Assembly: GCA_031255275.1 (NCBI GenBank)
Contig: JAIRSV010000056.1
Location: forward strand, 1-34,295
DNA from: Proteiniphilum sp.
GTDB lineage: Bacteria; Bacteroidota; Bacteroidia; Bacteroidales; Dysgonomonadaceae
Direction: 5' to 3'
Length of the DNA: 34,295 bases
This document shows, piece after piece, positions 4,968-32,021 of this stretch (the stretch's first letter is position 1; the number at the start of each line of letters is the position of its first letter). The notes beneath the pieces were generated by a model. That model searched no databases. It saw only the letters and a program-made list of their open reading frames with translations, and was not told the origin of the DNA. A program made the translations under genes and the position numbers.

Positions 4968-4991
4968 TGCTGATGGGATTATAATCGGGCG

Positions 4992-6455
4992 TTACTTCAA
5001 ATTCTCCAGTACTTCGACGAGATAACCGTAGCATTTCCCCACCGTATCTGTCCGTACCGCTTCGTCGGGCGAATGTGCCCCGGTGATGGTCGGCCCGAAA
5101 GAGACAATATCGAGGCTCTGCTCTACATTCGACTGGATGATGCCACACTCCAGACCGGCATGGATCACCACTACCCGAGGTCTCTTGCCGTATCTTCCCA
5201 GATAAATTTTCTCCATGACGAGCAGCAGTTCCGAGCCGGCATTGGGTTTCCATCCCGGATAATCTCCTTCGAACTCCACCTTTGCCCAGACCAGGTCGAA
5301 GAGGCTTTCCAACGAGGAGCAAATCCAGTCCTTACGGCTTTCGGAAGAGCTTCGCACCAGCAGTTTTATTTCGATACTGTCGTCCGAAGAGTCTATGAGA
5401 GCAAGATTCAGCGAACTCTCCACGATTCCCGGAAAATCGGCCAGATAGCTGACCACGCCGTTGGGACAAGCCTCTACGACGTTGATGAGGTCGTCCTGCA
5501 CCTCCTCCGGCAGAAGTGCGCCGGGCATATCCGTCCTTTCCGCCTTGAACGAGATATTCTCTTCGATGCCGGCAAAATCTTCGCGAAACAGCGCCTCATA
5601 TTCGCTCACCAGGTCGACCAGGTCGTCCGAGAGCTGTTCGGGAACAGTCAGCACGACGAATGATTCGCGTGGAATGGCGTTTCGCAGCGATCCGCCCCGT
5701 ATGACGGCTATGCGGGCTTCGTAGTTGGTCACCACATCTTTCAGGAAGCGGTTCATCAGCTTGTTTGCATTGGCGCGTCCCAAATGGATCTGCACGCCGG
5801 AATGTCCGCCTTTCAGTCCCTGCAGGCTTACCTTGTAGGCCACATCACCCTTGTCTATCTCCCGGTCGGGCTGAAACCGGAACGAGATATTCACATCCCG
5901 GCCGCCGGCGCAGCCGATACAGAGTTCGCCATCCTCTTCCGTATCGAGGTTGAGCATCGTGGATCCTTTCAGGAAGCCCTTCTCCAGACCGTTGGCGCCG
6001 TCCATGCCCACTTCCTCGTCGACGGTGAAAAGCGCTTCGAGCGGAGGATGTTGCAGTGAACTGTCTTCCAGCACGGCCATCATCATGGCGCAGCCTATGC
6101 CGTTGTCGGCGCCCAGCGTGGTGGAGCGGGCCTTCACCCATTCTCCGTCGATGTATGTTTCTATGGGGTCTGTGGCAAAGTCATGCTTCACTCCCGTATT
6201 TTTTTGGGGCACCATGTCGAGGTGCGACTGCAAAATAACTCCCTTTCGGCTTTCATATCCTTTGGAAGCCGGTTTCCTGATTACCACGTTGCCAACTCCG
6301 TCCTGTTTCGTTTCCAGGTTGAGCGCCTGTCCGAAATCCACTATGAAGCGGGTTACCTCTTTCATCTGTCCCGTCGGGCGGGGTATCCGGGTAAGTGAAT
6401 GGAAATGGTTCCAGACTCTCTGCGGATCTAAATTTAAAATTTCTGCTACAGCCAT
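4992..6455 (-). CDS. pepD: Aminoacyl-histidine dipeptidase / M20 cytosol non-specific dipeptidase
   Basis: LQSHLDMVPQ, STTLGADNGIGCAMMMAVLED, LFTVDEEVGMDGA, LKGGHSGVQIHLGRANANKL motifs. Confidence 0.95.
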   Translation of the reverse strand: MAVAEILNLDPQRVWNHFHSLTRIPRPTGQMKEVTRFIVDFGQALNLETKQDGVGNVVIRKPASKGYESRKGVILQSHLDMVPQKNTGVKHDFATDPIETYIDGEWVKARSTTLGADNGIGCAMMMAVLEDSSLQHPPLEALFTVDEEVGMDGANGLEKGFLKGSTMLNLDTEEDGELCIGCAGGRDVNISFRFQPDREIDKGDVAYKVSLQGLKGGHSGVQIHLGRANANKLMNRFLKDVVTNYEARIAVIRGGSLRNAIPRESFVVLTVPEQLSDDLVDLVSEYEALFREDFAGIEENISFKAERTDMPGALLPEEVQDDLINVVEACPNGVVSYLADFPGIVESSLNLALIDSSDDSIEIKLLVRSSSESRKDWICSSLESLFDLVWAKVEFEGDYPGWKPNAGSELLLVMEKIYLGRYGKRPRVVVIHAGLECGIIQSNVEQSLDIVSFGPTITGAHSPDEAVRTDTVGKCYGYLVEVLENLK

Positions 6456-10034: not shown

Positions 10035-12833
10035 TCATTCGGTGTCATCCGTTTCGTATTCGTAACCCCATGTTCTGCCCTTGTCTGCGGCGGGAACGCC
10101 TTTTGTCATCCAGACGGGGGCCGGCGCTCCTTTCAGGTAGTGGTCGAAGAACTGCTGAAGGCGGATGGAGAGGTCTTTGGCGTTGCGGCGTTCCCGAAGG
10201 TTGTGTGCTTCGTTGTTGTACTGCAGCATCCAGACGGGTTTCCCGAGCCGGCGCAGTGCCATGAAGTATTCTATGCCCTGATACCAGGGTACGGCGCCGT
10301 CGTTGTCGTTGTGCATGATGAGCAGCGGGGTGCTGACGTCTCGGGCGTAGAAGAGGGGGGAGTTTTGAAGGTAGAGGTGCAGCGAGTCGCTCATGGGCGA
10401 TCCGATGCGCGACTGTGTCTGCTCGTACTGGAACTGGCGGCTGCGTCCCGATTCCCAGCGTATTCCGCCGTAGGCGCTGGTCATGTTTGATACCGGCGCG
10501 CCGGCGCCGGCGGCTTTAAACAGGTTGGTCTTCGTCACCAGGTATGCCACCTGATAGCCTCCCCAGCTTTGTCCCTGTATGGCCATGTTGCTTTTGTCTG
10601 CCCAGCTGTTTTCGGCCAGGGCTTCCGCGCCGGCTACGATCGAATTGTAGGCGTCCTGACCCGGTTGACCGGTCGTGTAATGTATGTCGGGGGTGAAGAC
10701 TATGTAGCCGCGGCTCACGTAGAAGGGTATGTTGATGGTGGAACGGCTGGGGGTCGGGGCAAAGTGGCTGTGCAGGTTGTCGGAATGTTGTTCGTAGAAG
10801 TAGATCATTACCGGGTATTTCTTTGCGGGATCAAACTCCTCGGGTTTGTATACGATGCCCTGATGAGGCACTCCGGCAAGGGAGGTCCAGGAGAAGAGTT
10901 CGGCCCTTCCCCAGCTGTATTCGCGCATTTGCGGATTGATGTCGGTCAGCTTTTCGGCCGACTGCCAGAGGTTGTGGGTGACGTGGAGGTCGGGCGAGGT
11001 GTGGAAGTTGCTTTTCAGGAAGGTGTATACTTCGCGCTCTTTCGCTTTCCTGACGGACGGGAAGGTATATGTGTCCATTATCCGTTTCTTCAGCGGATTG
11101 CGTCCCTTTGGGGCGAGGGTGTAGTAGCCGGATCGTTTGGTTGTTCTCTCGAAGGCGGAGAGGAGTAGCCGGTCGCCGGCTTCGATGAATCGCTTTTCGG
11201 GGTCGGTGTTCACATACCGGAACGTAATGGAGTCGTTTCTCCCGGCTTGACCGGTGATGTTCTCAGGTTTCATCTCTCCTTTGGGGTCGATTTTCCAGAT
11301 GTCGAATGCGTCGTAGACGAGTACCGACGCGTCGTTTTCTGTCCAGGCGGCAATTCCGTAGGCGCCGGGGGGTGAGGGGATGTCGTTTTTCTCGTCCCAG
11401 AAGTTGACGGGGATATTCCCGGTGATGTTTTCGGTGGATCCGTCGCGGTTGTCACGGGCGAACCACTGACGCTCGGTGGCGTCCCACCAGTATACGAAGT
11501 TGCCCTGCGGCGAGAGGGAGGGTCTTCCTCTGAGGGGGGTGGCGACGGTTTGCAGTGTACCCGTTTGGGCGTCCCATACCCGGACGTCGTTCATGGGGGA
11601 GATGTCCCACTGACTTTCGAGCTGATAGGGTTCGTCAGACCAGAGCAGGGCGAAACGGCCGTCTCCTTCGTCCGAGATCTGACAGAAGGGGGTCTCTTCG
11701 CCGGCGATGGGGATGAACCGGTCAGGCTGTTCGGGGAGGATGATTCCCGTATACGTCCGGCGCTGTCTGTTTTTCAGTTCCACCAGCTGCTGGGGCTGAA
11801 TCAGTGGCTCGCGCCAGTGCCAGACGTCGAGTGTTGCCGTTTCAAAATCGACAATGGTTGTGTCTTTGGGCGCCTGTTGCGGGGCGGCTCCGAGGATTAC
11901 CCGCCTGCCGTTCCGGCTGAATCGCGGGGAGGAATGTTCGTTGAAGATCCGGTTTTCGGGAAGTCCCTCTGTGTTTTTGCCGGCGAGGATGACGGCCGAA
12001 TCGGTTCCGTTGCGGAAATACCGTACGTCGAAGACCTTCTGTGCGATTTTTGACGTATCTCTCGTGGCCAGGTACAGGAGCTGGTCGCCGTTTTCGTCGA
12101 AGGCCAGCGATTTGTATTCCGCCTTTTCGCCGGAGATGCGCCGGGAGGTATTCTTTCTCAGGTCGCAGAACAGGACGCCGGGGGTGTCGACAGAATCTTT
12201 CTTGTCAGGTTCGATGATGGCGGCCAGCGCGTTTCCGTATTTGCTGAAGATGTATTCTTTCGCGTTGGGGACGGTATCCTCGTGTTGCGTGAGGGTGTTG
12301 CGGATCACGAGCAGGTTTTTTGACCCGGACGATGTGTCCTTTTCCCCGGTCGAGTCGCTCTTCGGGGTGAGGGTGTAGGCTACGTGGGTGAGCGCCTTTT
12401 CCGGGACTTTGAATGTTTTGACACCGGCTATTTTCTCGATGTCGAACGTGCTGTGGCGGATCACGATCAGTGAATCTTCCGGCATTTCGTCCGCCTTTTT
12501 CTTTTTTATCCGCGCCTCCCGCCGTTCGGCAAAGGGGGCTTTGATCAGGCCGACCGTATATTGTCCGTCGGGTGAGAGCGTGAAGCTTTTCACGCCCTTC
12601 AGCATCAGCGTCTGACTGTTTTTGAGGTCGCGAAGGAAGAGGGTGCTGTCGCCCTCCTGCGGACTGATGATGGCGCCGACGTAGCGGCCATCGTCGCTTA
12701 CGGAGATGTTTTGAAGGCTGTTCCAGCCGTCGAAGGCCGAATGGTCGAGCGGTTTCTTCCGGGCGAGCGCCGCCGTACTGAAGGTGATGTGAAAGAGGAT
12801 GAGGATAATGCTGAAATGGGGTATGAGTCGCAT
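10035..12833 (-). CDS. Secreted S9 prolyl-oligopeptidase-family peptidase
   Basis: 932 aa; N-terminal signal, beta-propeller-like region, nucleophile motif AIQGQSWGGYQVAYL, Asp region HNDNDGAVPWYQG, His region NNEAHNLRERRN. Confidence 0.92.
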   Translation of the reverse strand: MRLIPHFSIILILFHITFSTAALARKKPLDHSAFDGWNSLQNISVSDDGRYVGAIISPQEGDSTLFLRDLKNSQTLMLKGVKSFTLSPDGQYTVGLIKAPFAERREARIKKKKADEMPEDSLIVIRHSTFDIEKIAGVKTFKVPEKALTHVAYTLTPKSDSTGEKDTSSGSKNLLVIRNTLTQHEDTVPNAKEYIFSKYGNALAAIIEPDKKDSVDTPGVLFCDLRKNTSRRISGEKAEYKSLAFDENGDQLLYLATRDTSKIAQKVFDVRYFRNGTDSAVILAGKNTEGLPENRIFNEHSSPRFSRNGRRVILGAAPQQAPKDTTIVDFETATLDVWHWREPLIQPQQLVELKNRQRRTYTGIILPEQPDRFIPIAGEETPFCQISDEGDGRFALLWSDEPYQLESQWDISPMNDVRVWDAQTGTLQTVATPLRGRPSLSPQGNFVYWWDATERQWFARDNRDGSTENITGNIPVNFWDEKNDIPSPPGAYGIAAWTENDASVLVYDAFDIWKIDPKGEMKPENITGQAGRNDSITFRYVNTDPEKRFIEAGDRLLLSAFERTTKRSGYYTLAPKGRNPLKKRIMDTYTFPSVRKAKEREVYTFLKSNFHTSPDLHVTHNLWQSAEKLTDINPQMREYSWGRAELFSWTSLAGVPHQGIVYKPEEFDPAKKYPVMIYFYEQHSDNLHSHFAPTPSRSTINIPFYVSRGYIVFTPDIHYTTGQPGQDAYNSIVAGAEALAENSWADKSNMAIQGQSWGGYQVAYLVTKTNLFKAAGAGAPVSNMTSAYGGIRWESGRSRQFQYEQTQSRIGSPMSDSLHLYLQNSPLFYARDVSTPLLIMHNDNDGAVPWYQGIEYFMALRRLGKPVWMLQYNNEAHNLRERRNAKDLSIRLQQFFDHYLKGAPAPVWMTKGVPAADKGRTWGYEYETDDTE

Positions 12834-13072
12834 AATATTTATTTTTTAATTGATGGAACTGTTCCGGTAAGAGAACGGGCTGAATTTTATCAAAATTAAA
12901 ATTTAATGTTCAAAAACGGAGGACGAATATACGGGAAAACTTTGTGTTTTACAATATATATGGGATACATTCGTCTCACACAGGCATTTTTCGCTGAATG
13001 ATCACACTCTCACCCCTGACACATACTCACCGTTTCTGCGCGTCAGTACGGACTGAAAATGACCGCGGGAGA

Positions 13073-13530
13073 TAAATCATGCTTTCAGAGGAACAGGAAC
13101 GTCCCGCCGAGGGTAAAATCATGCTTTCAGAGGAACGGGAACGCTCCGCCGAGGGTAAAATCATGCTTTCAGAGGAACAGGAACGTCCCGCCGAGGGTAA
13201 AATCATACTTTCAGAGGAACGGGAACGCTCCGCCGAGGGTAAAAGCATACTTTCAGAGGAACGGGAACGTCCCGCCGAGGATAAAAAATCATGCTTTCAA
13301 CGCGACGAGAATGTCCCGCCGAAGGTAAAATCATGCTTTCAACAGGGCGAGAATGTTCCGCCGAAGATAAAATCATGCTTTCAACGCGGCGAGAATGTTC
13401 CGCCGAGGGTAAAATCATGCTTTCAACGCGACGAGAATGTCCCGCCGAGGGTAAAATCATGCTTTCAACGCGACGAAGAATGTTCCGCCGAAGATAAAAT
13501 CATACTTTCAACGCGACGGGAATCTTCTGC
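13073..13530. repeat. Array of ~11 tandem 42-bp imperfect direct repeats (consensus about aaaatcatgctttca[gaggaac/acgcgac]gggaacgtcccgccgagggt)
   Basis: Read directly: two subfamilies (units 1-5 with ...TTTCAGAGGAAC..., units 6-11 with ...TTTCAACGCGAC...), an alternating dimeric pattern in units 1-4, and indels of +2 and +1 bp at units 6 and 10. Confidence 0.97.
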
Positions 13531-13547
13531 CGGCATCATCCCGCACA

Positions 13548-13578
13548 TTGTCCGCAGAGAATAAAATCAGTATCTTTG
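13548..13578 (+). promoter_or_regulatory. Promoter TTG-N20-TATCTTTG of the phosphoesterase gene
   Basis: TTG at 13548-13550 and TATCTTTG at 13571-13578, exact TAnnTTTG box, 40 nt upstream of the ATG at 13618. Confidence 0.7.
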
Positions 13579-13617
13579 TGCGAAACTCTGCAAAGCATTA
13601 TACAATTCATTAAAAGC

Positions 13618-15555
13618 ATGATGACAAACAGCAATAAACCCGTACTCCGCATACGAAGAGCAGTGATATTCCTGCTATTTACACTCATCGTCCAGGCCGG
13701 CCACCCTCAGCCGTCACCGATACGCGTCAACCGGGCCGGACACCCGGAGGATGAGAACAGGGTTGCCTTTCCGCAGCGCGAAAACACCCTCCGCCTCTTG
13801 ACCTACAATATCCATCACGGCGAGGGGATGGACGGAAAAATCAATATCGAACGGATCGGCAAACTGATCATCGACATCAGTCCCGACGCTGCGGGACTCC
13901 AGGAAGTGGACAGCGTGACGGCTCGCAGCGGCGGCATCGACATCATGCAGCAACTCTCGGCCCGGACCGGGATGTATGCCACCTTCGGCAGTTCCATCCC
14001 GCACGACGGCGGACGGTATGGCAACGGCGTCCTGACGCGCGAAAAACCCCTCTCCACGAGGAAGATCACCCTTCCCGGCTCTGAGGAGGCCCGCTCTGCG
14101 CTGATCGTGGAACTCGACAAATATATAATCGTCAACACCCACCTCTCCCTCCACGGCGCCGAACGGCTCGAATCACTCCGGATCATCACCGGCGCCGTCG
14201 ACGCGTATGACAAACCCGTATTCCTGCTGGGAGACCTCAACGATACACCCGATTCGGCACCCCTCACCCTCCTGCGCGACGCGTGGCAAATCCTCACCGA
14301 CCCCTCCCTGCCCACCAGTCCCTCGGTCGACCCCCTGTCCACGATCGACTACATCCTGGGATACACGGCCAGGGGACAGACTTATGCAAAATACGCCACC
14401 CGCGTCGTCGACGACAGCGAAGCCTCTGACCACAGACCCGTTTTTGCGGACATCCGCCTGAAAACCCCCTCCGCCGGCGTGATGCGCACCATCCCCTATC
14501 TGCAAAGCCCCGGCAGCGACGAGATGACCGTGATGTGGCTGACCGGCGTGCCCGCCCGAAGCTGGGTGGAATATGGCACCGATCCCGGCGAAATGAAACG
14601 GGTACGCACCTTTGTCGAAGGCAAGATGGTGGCAAACAACACCATCAACCGCATACGGCTTACCGGCCTTCAGCCCGGCACGCAATACTGCTACCGGGTC
14701 GTTTCGCAGGAGATAACCCGTTACTCCGCCTATTACAAAGAATTCGGCGACACCGTCAGGTCCGGCATCAAAACCTTCACCACCCTGAACGACAGGCCGG
14801 ACGACTTCCGCGTCATCATCTACAACGACATTCACCGCAACACACAACTGTTCGAGAAACTGCACGCACACGTGGATGACAAACCCTGTGACCTGGTCAT
14901 CTTCAACGGCGACTGCTTCGACGACACTGAGTCCGAAAGCGACATCCTCGACCGCCTCACCATCTACACCTCCCGGATAAGAAGCGACGAAACGCCCTCC
15001 ATATTCATCCGTGGAAACCACGAAACCCGTGGTGAATACTCCCTCCGCCTGTGGGACTATCTGGGGAAGATAAACGGACGTTCATACGGTGCCTTTTCGC
15101 TGGGCGGCGTCCGCTTCGTGCTGCTCGACTGCGGCGAAGACAAGCCCGACGATCACCGGGTATACTATGACATGAACGACTTCACCCGGCACCGGATCGA
15201 CCAGGCCGAATTTCTGAAACAGGAACTTGAATCCGAAGAATTTATCAAAGCCGGCAAAAGAGTCCTCATCCACCACATCCCCCTCTTCGGCATGGCCTCC
15301 GACGAGTACGTCCCCTGCGCCGACCTGTGGCAACCGGTTCTGAAAGACGCACCGTTCAACGTCACCCTCAACGCCCACACGCACCGTTTCCGCGTAATCG
15401 AAAAAGGCGAAGCCGGGAATAATTTCCCCGTCGTCATCGGCGGCGGCAACAAAGAGTCAGACGGAACAGTAATGATGTTAGAGAAAAAAGGAGAAACACT
15501 AACCCTCACGGCATTTGATGCAGCAGGCGAAAAGCTACTGGAAAAAACCCTTTGA
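13618..15555 (+). CDS. Secreted two-domain phosphoesterase: N-terminal endonuclease/exonuclease/phosphatase domain plus C-terminal FN3-like and calcineurin-like metallophosphatase
   Basis: EEP: LRLLTYNIHHGEG, LQEVD, VNTHLSLH, LLGDLNDTPDS, SDHRPVFADI. Metallophosphatase: IIYNDIH, VIFNGDCFDD, FIRGNHETRG, LIHHIPLFG, LNAHTHRF. The track start (TTG 13576) overlaps the promoter box, so the in-frame ATG 13618 is preferred. Confidence 0.9.
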   Translation: MMTNSNKPVLRIRRAVIFLLFTLIVQAGHPQPSPIRVNRAGHPEDENRVAFPQRENTLRLLTYNIHHGEGMDGKINIERIGKLIIDISPDAAGLQEVDSVTARSGGIDIMQQLSARTGMYATFGSSIPHDGGRYGNGVLTREKPLSTRKITLPGSEEARSALIVELDKYIIVNTHLSLHGAERLESLRIITGAVDAYDKPVFLLGDLNDTPDSAPLTLLRDAWQILTDPSLPTSPSVDPLSTIDYILGYTARGQTYAKYATRVVDDSEASDHRPVFADIRLKTPSAGVMRTIPYLQSPGSDEMTVMWLTGVPARSWVEYGTDPGEMKRVRTFVEGKMVANNTINRIRLTGLQPGTQYCYRVVSQEITRYSAYYKEFGDTVRSGIKTFTTLNDRPDDFRVIIYNDIHRNTQLFEKLHAHVDDKPCDLVIFNGDCFDDTESESDILDRLTIYTSRIRSDETPSIFIRGNHETRGEYSLRLWDYLGKINGRSYGAFSLGGVRFVLLDCGEDKPDDHRVYYDMNDFTRHRIDQAEFLKQELESEEFIKAGKRVLIHHIPLFGMASDEYVPCADLWQPVLKDAPFNVTLNAHTHRFRVIEKGEAGNNFPVVIGGGNKESDGTVMMLEKKGETLTLTAFDAAGEKLLEKTL

Positions 15556-30875: not shown

Positions 30876-32021
30876 TTACGGGATATAGAGGAGGAGCTTT
30901 TCGCCCGCTTTCAACCCCGCGTTCGTTTGCGGATTCCATTCCCTCAGCTGTTCGAGCGAGCAGCCGTATTGTCTTGAAATGGAATAGAGCGTTTCGCCTG
31001 CCCGTACCGTGTGGCTTCTGGGGGGTGGGGGGACGGTTGTATTTTCGTCATCCCTGAGGATCATCCCGCTTTTGGCCTGCCGGAGCGTTTCGTCTGCCCG
31101 TTCCCTGCCGTTTGCGGTCGACCCGGTGGGGTCGAGGGGCGGATTTTTCAGCGGATCGGTCTGTACGATTATCACCGGATCGTGTCCGTTTTCCGGACGG
31201 CTGTCCGGCTGTCCGGCGATGGTGACATGCTTCGTCGCTTTGTCGGGAATCATTTCCGGAATGTCAGGCTGTGCGGACTTTCTGCCTGTTTCGGGACGGC
31301 TGCCCGGCTGTCCGGCGATGGTGATGAATTTTGTCGCTTTGCCGGGAATCTTTTTCGGAATGTCAGGCCGTGCGGCGTCCCTGCCTGCCGCGAGGGCGCG
31401 GGGTGCGGGATGCTTCTTCCCGGCCGACGGGGGATTTTCAGGGTCGGCGTATGACGCCTTTCCGTTCAGCACCCTGCCTCCGCGCAGGTAGCGCGGTGCG
31501 AAATACGGTTCGGAGGAGGAGGAGATGATGACGCCGCGGGAGGTGGAGGAGTGGATGAATTTGAAGTGTCCGCCGGGAAATGCTTCCGTCACGATCCCCA
31601 CGTGTCCTATTTTCCCGTTCCTCCTGCGTCCCTCAAAAAAGACGAGATCGCCTTTGCGAAGCCCTCCCTTGCGGGTGATGGCGACGGTTTGTCTGCTCTG
31701 TCCCGCGGTGCTGGGTTCTAACCGGTAGCCGAACTTCCGGAATACGAAGGAGGTGTATCCCGAACAGTCGAAGGCCTCCGGTCCCCTGGCCGCATAGCGG
31801 TAGGGTTTGCCGAGGTATTTCCGGCCGTAGCGGACGATTTCGTCCGGCAGTGCTGTGGTGATTTGGGAGGTTTTGGAACTCCCGGCAGTTTTGGAGCCTT
31901 TGGTGGCCTGTCTGCCGGGGACAGCCGTCTTCCCCGCGCCGCACGAGGCGAGGACGAGTGACAGGACTGCCAGTGAAGCGGCCTTTCTCCAGCCGCCGTT
32001 TCCGTATGTCTTGATGATCAT
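30876..32021 (-). CDS. NlpC/P60 family lipoprotein with C-terminal LysM domain
   Basis: Lipobox-like SLVLASCG; AFDCSGYTSFVFRKFG (Cys), GHVGIVTEAF (His), LysM HTVRAGETLYSISRQYGCSLEQLREWNP. Confidence 0.92.
   Translation of the reverse strand: MIIKTYGNGGWRKAASLAVLSLVLASCGAGKTAVPGRQATKGSKTAGSSKTSQITTALPDEIVRYGRKYLGKPYRYAARGPEAFDCSGYTSFVFRKFGYRLEPSTAGQSRQTVAITRKGGLRKGDLVFFEGRRRNGKIGHVGIVTEAFPGGHFKFIHSSTSRGVIISSSSEPYFAPRYLRGGRVLNGKASYADPENPPSAGKKHPAPRALAAGRDAARPDIPKKIPGKATKFITIAGQPGSRPETGRKSAQPDIPEMIPDKATKHVTIAGQPDSRPENGHDPVIIVQTDPLKNPPLDPTGSTANGRERADETLRQAKSGMILRDDENTTVPPPPRSHTVRAGETLYSISRQYGCSLEQLREWNPQTNAGLKAGEKLLLYIP

Follow-up and report, generated by a model that had tools for sequence, protein, structure and literature searches.

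A 42-bp intergenic array of Proteiniphilum sp. within a population of non-coding tandem repeats of helix-length unit

The stretch of Proteiniphilum sp. DNA analysed here (the window, 34,295 bp) carries an array of 42-bp tandem units, which was assigned to a satellite class and to a family of arrays dispersed as leader-plus-array elements in the same genome. These arrays occupy non-coding intergenic places, contain homogenised blocks, belong to a population with periods clustered near two and four turns of the helix and, compared with one another, show covariation between the arms of their dyads. The favoured interpretation, held with a confidence slightly short of even, is that the array is a non-coding intergenic satellite from a lineage-specific population, in which the unit remains near two or four helix turns, the sequence drifts, and phased symmetric sites would be bound by protein or extruded as cruciforms. 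The points in its favour are the six arrays of one family, the shared leader and tail, the clustering of periods, the intergenic place, the covariation and the same skeleton in other genomes.

The window array and its flanking genes

The features of the locus, in window coordinates, are as follows.

10035–12833, minus strand: S9 prolyl oligopeptidase-family gene, left neighbour (PF00326, E = 2.5e-28)
13041–13082, plus strand: leader unit GTCAGTACGGACTGAAAATGACCGCGGGAGATAAATCATGC (blastn, 82–85% over 42–46 bp to the leaders of C133 and C163, E = 8e-7 and 2e-8)
13079–13564, plus strand: 161-aa open frame spanning the array, judged not to be a gene (no Pfam match, frame changes at indels, stops in sister arrays)
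13083–13294, plus strand: A block, five units TTTCAGAGGAAC(A/G)GGAACG..., the fifth of 44 bp (manual phasing, TRF)
13295–13505, plus strand: B block, five units TTTCAACGCGACGAGAATG..., the fifth of 43 bp (manual phasing, TRF)
13506–13528, plus strand: partial, decaying 11th unit TTTCAACGCGACGGGAATCTTCT... (phasing; ~32-bp blastn alignments with other units, terminating near 13532)
13548–13578, plus strand: probable phosphoesterase promoter, TTG-N20-TATCTTTG (motif scan; weak, out-of-register similarity to the repeat unit)
13618–15555, plus strand: two-domain phosphoesterase gene (Exo_endo_phos and Metallophos), right neighbour (PF03372, E = 3.5e-17; PF00149, E = 1.2e-12), with an inferred start codon near 13618

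The array extends over approximately 13041–13528 and consists of a leader unit, ten full units of 42–44 bp and a partial unit. Tandem Repeats Finder (TRF) delimited it at 13074–13510 (period 42, 10.3 copies, 87% matches), and the ten full units phased manually at 13083–13505 measured 42, 42, 42, 42, 44, 42, 42, 42, 42 and 43 bp. Units of the A type (13083–13294) begin with TTTCAGAGGAACGGGAACG... A two-unit skeleton pattern gave six matches in the window vs none in 100 shuffles. The 42-bp minisatellite that an earlier note on this DNA had placed in the divergent intergenic region between the peptidase and phosphoesterase genes is borne out by TRF, by manual phasing and by this comparison. The units are contiguous and have no spacers; a CRISPR array, for which identical repeats with unique spacers are expected, was rejected. 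Elsewhere in the window, at 31190–31375, a 99-bp tandem duplication (1.9 copies) is located within a minus-strand gene.

Since 42 is divisible by three and the 161-aa open frame covers the array, the units might be read as 14-aa repeats of a protein. This reading is hardly credible. The frame avoids stops only because +2 and +1 indels inside the array shift it from one repeat frame to another, and a Pfam search of the 161-aa translation gave no match. Substitutions among the window units are spread evenly across codon positions, and two sister arrays of the family, C133 and C163, contain stop codons in all six frames. In addition, 14 of the 42 arrays of 20–23 or 40–44 bp found in the same genome have periods not divisible by three (20, 23, 41 and 44 bp).

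The promoter at 13548–13578 is the only TTG-N17–23-TAnnTTTG site in the intergenic region, in agreement with the earlier observation that a good TTG-N20 promoter is present only at the downstream end of the array. It had also been suggested that this promoter is itself a diverged unit, and here the results are divided. The best local score between the promoter neighbourhood and the units is 25, which was reached by 1 of 500 dinucleotide shuffles (p ~0.004), so that a similarity above 499 of 500 shuffles stands. However, the same score was reached by 3 to 4 of ~455 other upstream regions (L104, L153, L151, L125; p ~0.01), none of which lies beside a recognised array of the 42-bp family. From the AATC of the last full unit to that of the promoter the distance is 67 bp, compared with the 42 or 84 bp expected in register, and the similarity therefore falls outside the 42-bp register. 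The promoter may be a decayed unit, the likeness being weak and noticed post hoc.

Sister arrays and the genome-wide population

The genome (2.02 Mb in 177 contigs, 76% complete) contains five further arrays of the 42-bp family, in contigs C103, C133, C163, C164 and C77, and the proposed check for the unit elsewhere in the genome thereby brought the family to six arrays. The family skeleton TTC-N10-GAA-N5-CNCCGARG-N4-AATC-N3-C matched 38 times with two or fewer mismatches; when reversed, it matched 0 times. One plan is common to the C133 and C163 arrays, in which a leader is followed by an A block, a transition unit, a B block and a tail. The tail (~74 bp, 89% identical) is common to these two only and is missing from the window array, and the leader is shared by all three (best blastn E = 2e-8 for the window leader). 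No terminal inverted repeats were found in the C163 element, the best inverted match between its ends being 5 bp. The C103 array (L052, around 4970–5260) has near-identical hairpins AAAAGAGACTGTCCG...CGGGCAGTCTCT on both sides, which are terminator-like direct repeats. Mobilisation of the RAYT/REP type was rejected, as the Y1 transposase domain PF01797 was not found in this genome (G000, an incomplete draft) or in the Odoribacteraceae genome G479, and so was a phage or plasmid origin, with no match in phage records, plasmid records or viral contigs.

A census of arrays was taken with TRF on 966 kb (48%) of this one draft, MAG-like genome, with a score of 100 or more as the threshold. The contigs were chosen by number, except for four short stretches holding family arrays and for C16, C93 and C155, which had other array hits. 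The census yielded 61 arrays, 29 with periods of 20–23 bp and 13 with periods of 40–44 bp; only one fell within 24–39 bp. The commonest period is 21 bp, and that of the window array is twice this value. The earlier remark that 42 bp is close to four helical turns is thus extended to the whole genome, where the periods of arrays gather around two and four turns. Several families of equal unit length and unrelated sequence coexist. Genes were called with a simple hexamer caller made for this analysis, by which 81% of the genome is coding, and all 42 arrays of 20–23 or 40–44 bp lie outside the called genes. Those flanked left and right by called genes are located between co-directional (14), divergent (4) and convergent (4) pairs, and this mixture of orientations indicates that the arrays are not a promoter feature. 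Nine of the 42 are situated at contig ends, where ~1% of bases lie; this excess implies that the arrays break the assembly and that true copy numbers may be larger.

Other repeats of the same genome were recorded alongside. Arrays of 21 bp with unrelated sequences are found at L054 12930–13078, L097 11005–11111, L098 7635–8008 and L137 13536–14215; examples of such units are TTTCTTACAAGAAAC (dyad p = 0.004) and TTTCCTCTGCAGAGTGAAACT. A dispersed 41/42-bp family with the palindrome TCTCGCACGGTGCGAGA (dyad p ~0.002–0.004) is present at L113 8409–8545, L127 1652–1931, L141 54–244 and L098 1–185, and some of its arrays are at contig ends. The hairpin-rich, GC-rich repeat GGCTCGGGGAGCGCCCGAGCGGCAAGGGGCGGGAGCACCCGCCCCGACGAACG is dispersed in many copies (L053 9209–9421, L127 1962–2266, L121 12918–13196, L097 696–968), often close to CGATTTCTTTATTAAG repeats. 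Arrays of 63 bp (L093, L106, L151, L158) lie mostly within genes and resemble coding 21-aa leucine-rich repeats, BspA-like by appearance.

These results bear on the proposal that the array is an expanded promoter, namely a regulatory minisatellite that arose from the promoter and tunes the phosphoesterase gene through its number of copies. It has in its favour a real promoter motif adjoining the array and the promoter–unit similarity described above, which is out of register and equalled upstream of other genes. The leader common to the window, C133 and C163 means that the window array is conserved at its left end, away from the promoter. The five further family arrays stand elsewhere in the genome, beside unrelated genes, and arrays of 20–23 or 40–44 bp also occur between convergent genes, with no excess of divergent pairs. 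The S9 peptidase and phosphoesterase genes are not neighbours in relatives where this could be checked. The promoter-expansion reading is mostly rejected, and tuning of the gene by a promoter-derived array is considered very unlikely.

The proposed check for the unit in relatives proved negative, blast and unit-model searches of 100 and 150 relatives having returned only one isolated chance match, in G094, which was rejected as a family member as it forms no tandem array. Arrays of 21/42 bp were absent from 652 kb sampled in three same-genus genomes, vs 28 expected at the rate of the Proteiniphilum genome itself. The same-genus genomes G016 and G020 have 7-bp tandem arrays in place of those of 21/42 bp (L228 12721–12827, L216 16427–16581, L223 4409–4516).

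A pattern scan of GTDB genomes revealed arrays in an Odoribacteraceae MAG (L059/G479), a Tannerella MAG (L055/G478) and a Bacteroidetes MAG (L061/G480); single matches at L056, L057, L058 and L060 are probably due to chance, and L057, which was checked, has no array. An order-wide scan added one more related place, in G387, under the TRF threshold. The distant genome G479 is array-rich, and its sequences differ from the window family while the skeleton is the same: relaxed matching found several arrays with one skeleton and different arms (TTCCGGAACTCCGGAA, TTCGGGAACTCCCGAA, TTCGTACTAGTACGAA, TTCCTGCGTGCGGGAA), and a 105-kb sample of its other contigs contained 12 arrays, all of 21, 23, 42 or 43 bp. 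Bacteroidales or Bacteroidetes is the recorded affiliation of the genomes that share the plan and have clear arrays.

Dyad symmetry of the unit and its possible origins

Symmetry was studied in 23 representative units at the four core pairs left unfixed by the search pattern, where 56.5% of cells are complementary vs 35.3% after shuffling. The arm covariation is 0.443 vs 0.168 ± 0.046, a value reached by none of 500 shuffles, in a test for which the search pattern had predetermined the TTC, GAA and CCGA positions and the rows were hand-picked and partly related. It is highest at zero slide and decreases when the partner is shifted by 1–3 columns. When all 42 symmetry centres were averaged over 17 units, the best two were 9.5 and 30.5, exactly 21 bp apart, as though a 42-bp unit were composed of two dyad units of 21 bp. 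The consensus of the window array itself has no significant dyad (p = 0.82), most of its symmetry being lost. Among the 21/42-bp arrays, only a third have a dyad p < 0.05, vs 0 of 60 random genomic segments.

According to the favoured interpretation, unit length would be held near two or four helix turns (20–23 or 40–44 bp) while the letters drift. The family unit may be written as TTC-N10-GAA-N7-CCGA-N7-ATC, and the unit plausibly once carried one inverted repeat per 21 bp, TTTCnnnnn/nnnnnGAAA centred at position 9.5 and CCGAGG/CCTCGG 21 bp further on (the slash marks the centre). What survives of these proposed dyads in the window array would be chiefly the CCGAGG half and the TTC/GAA ends. 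Arrays would have spread by copying of leader-plus-array elements, followed by local gain, loss and homogenisation of units. Phased two-fold symmetric sites on one face of the helix might receive a symmetric DNA-binding protein side by side or form small cruciforms, and the arrays might influence chromosome structure locally or serve as roadblocks, not as the promoter of one gene. The likeliest function, we infer, is a symmetric protein lined up along one face of the DNA, whose binding, with any effect on transcription, is presumed.

The main rival is a neutral origin in which amplification itself fixes the period. The arrays would then be functionless, the period would come from slippage or unequal recombination occurring preferentially at short palindromes in helical phase, and amplification would be seeded by the dyads; such a process could give the same period, and we consider it quite possible. 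The absence of arrays from the sampled same-genus genomes, the many unrelated sequences and the loss of symmetry in the window array are in line with it, and the avoidance of called genes is what selection against disruption alone would produce. Arm covariation and the same skeleton in distant genomes suggest, on the contrary, that symmetry is held, although the birth of arrays at fresh palindromes would likewise result in covarying arms.

Covarying arms would also be given by RNA hairpins, and the transcribed array might be a hairpin chain or a source of small RNA. The minus strand shows slightly stronger folding than its shuffles (z = −2.1). For the plus strand, however, folding is at the level of shuffles (z = −0.2), a search of Rfam matched no family, and the perfect, loop-less palindromes of G479 fit double-stranded DNA at least equally well. 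An element acting at the RNA level is accordingly regarded as improbable.

Relation to known repeat classes and significance

The best match for the window array is the known class of bacterial satellites with constant repeat size and variable sequence, of which it is filed as a 21/42-bp variant. The satellites described by Subirana and Messeguer are species-specific non-coding arrays with one or two fixed unit lengths per genome (20–21 or 52 nt, in Bacillus and others) and several unrelated families; 20–21 nt were equated with two helix turns, nucleoid proteins or RNAs were suggested to be involved, and short motifs and their reverse were seen within one repeat (PMC8161180). The arrays described here are likewise non-coding, fall into several unrelated families of equal length and have species-specific sequences. 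They differ in combining 21 with 42 bp (two dyads per unit) and in occurring in Bacteroidales-like genomes, and the arm covariation measured here is not reported in that paper. The abstract of a 2020 paper by the same authors in J Bacteriol is said to give units of 22/44 and 52 nt; if units of 22/44 nt were described there, a period of 42 bp would resemble the known class even more closely.

MIRU/VNTR-type and STAR-type intergenic minisatellites consist of dispersed tandem units in variable copy number, and the present arrays are similar to them in being tandem, intergenic and dispersed in the genome. To our knowledge, neither helix-length clustering nor covarying dyads have been described for these types. 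BrickBuilt, the architectural counterpart within the Bacteroidales, is a minisatellite-bearing MITE of Porphyromonas gingivalis. It is intergenic, has many dispersed copies with tandem 23-nt units between a leader and a tail, belongs to one sequence family with small terminal inverted repeats, and is mentioned as having dyad symmetry (PMC4596501). The family studied here resembles BrickBuilt in its dispersed intergenic copies and tandem units, with a leader in the window, C133 and C163 and a tail in C133 and C163 only. Unlike BrickBuilt, it has a 42-bp unit, and the C163 element is without terminal inverted repeats.

A broader proposal, which we regard as unlikely, is that the arrays form a system for organising the chromosome, with two-fold symmetry at 21-bp spacing recognised by a symmetric protein or by cruciforms largely regardless of sequence. 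If this were true, selection would maintain dyads and helical period against a background of changing letters, and the whole class of satellites of constant size and variable sequence would be explained. To a fixed unit length that is a multiple of the helix turn, the arrays add another conserved trait, inverted repeats at 21-bp intervals whose arms covary. This makes a described but unexplained satellite class easier to test and provides a concrete target for pull-down and structural assays. It also sets a genome-wide phenomenon apart from accounts of promoter repeats and partly explains the assembly breaks in such genomes.
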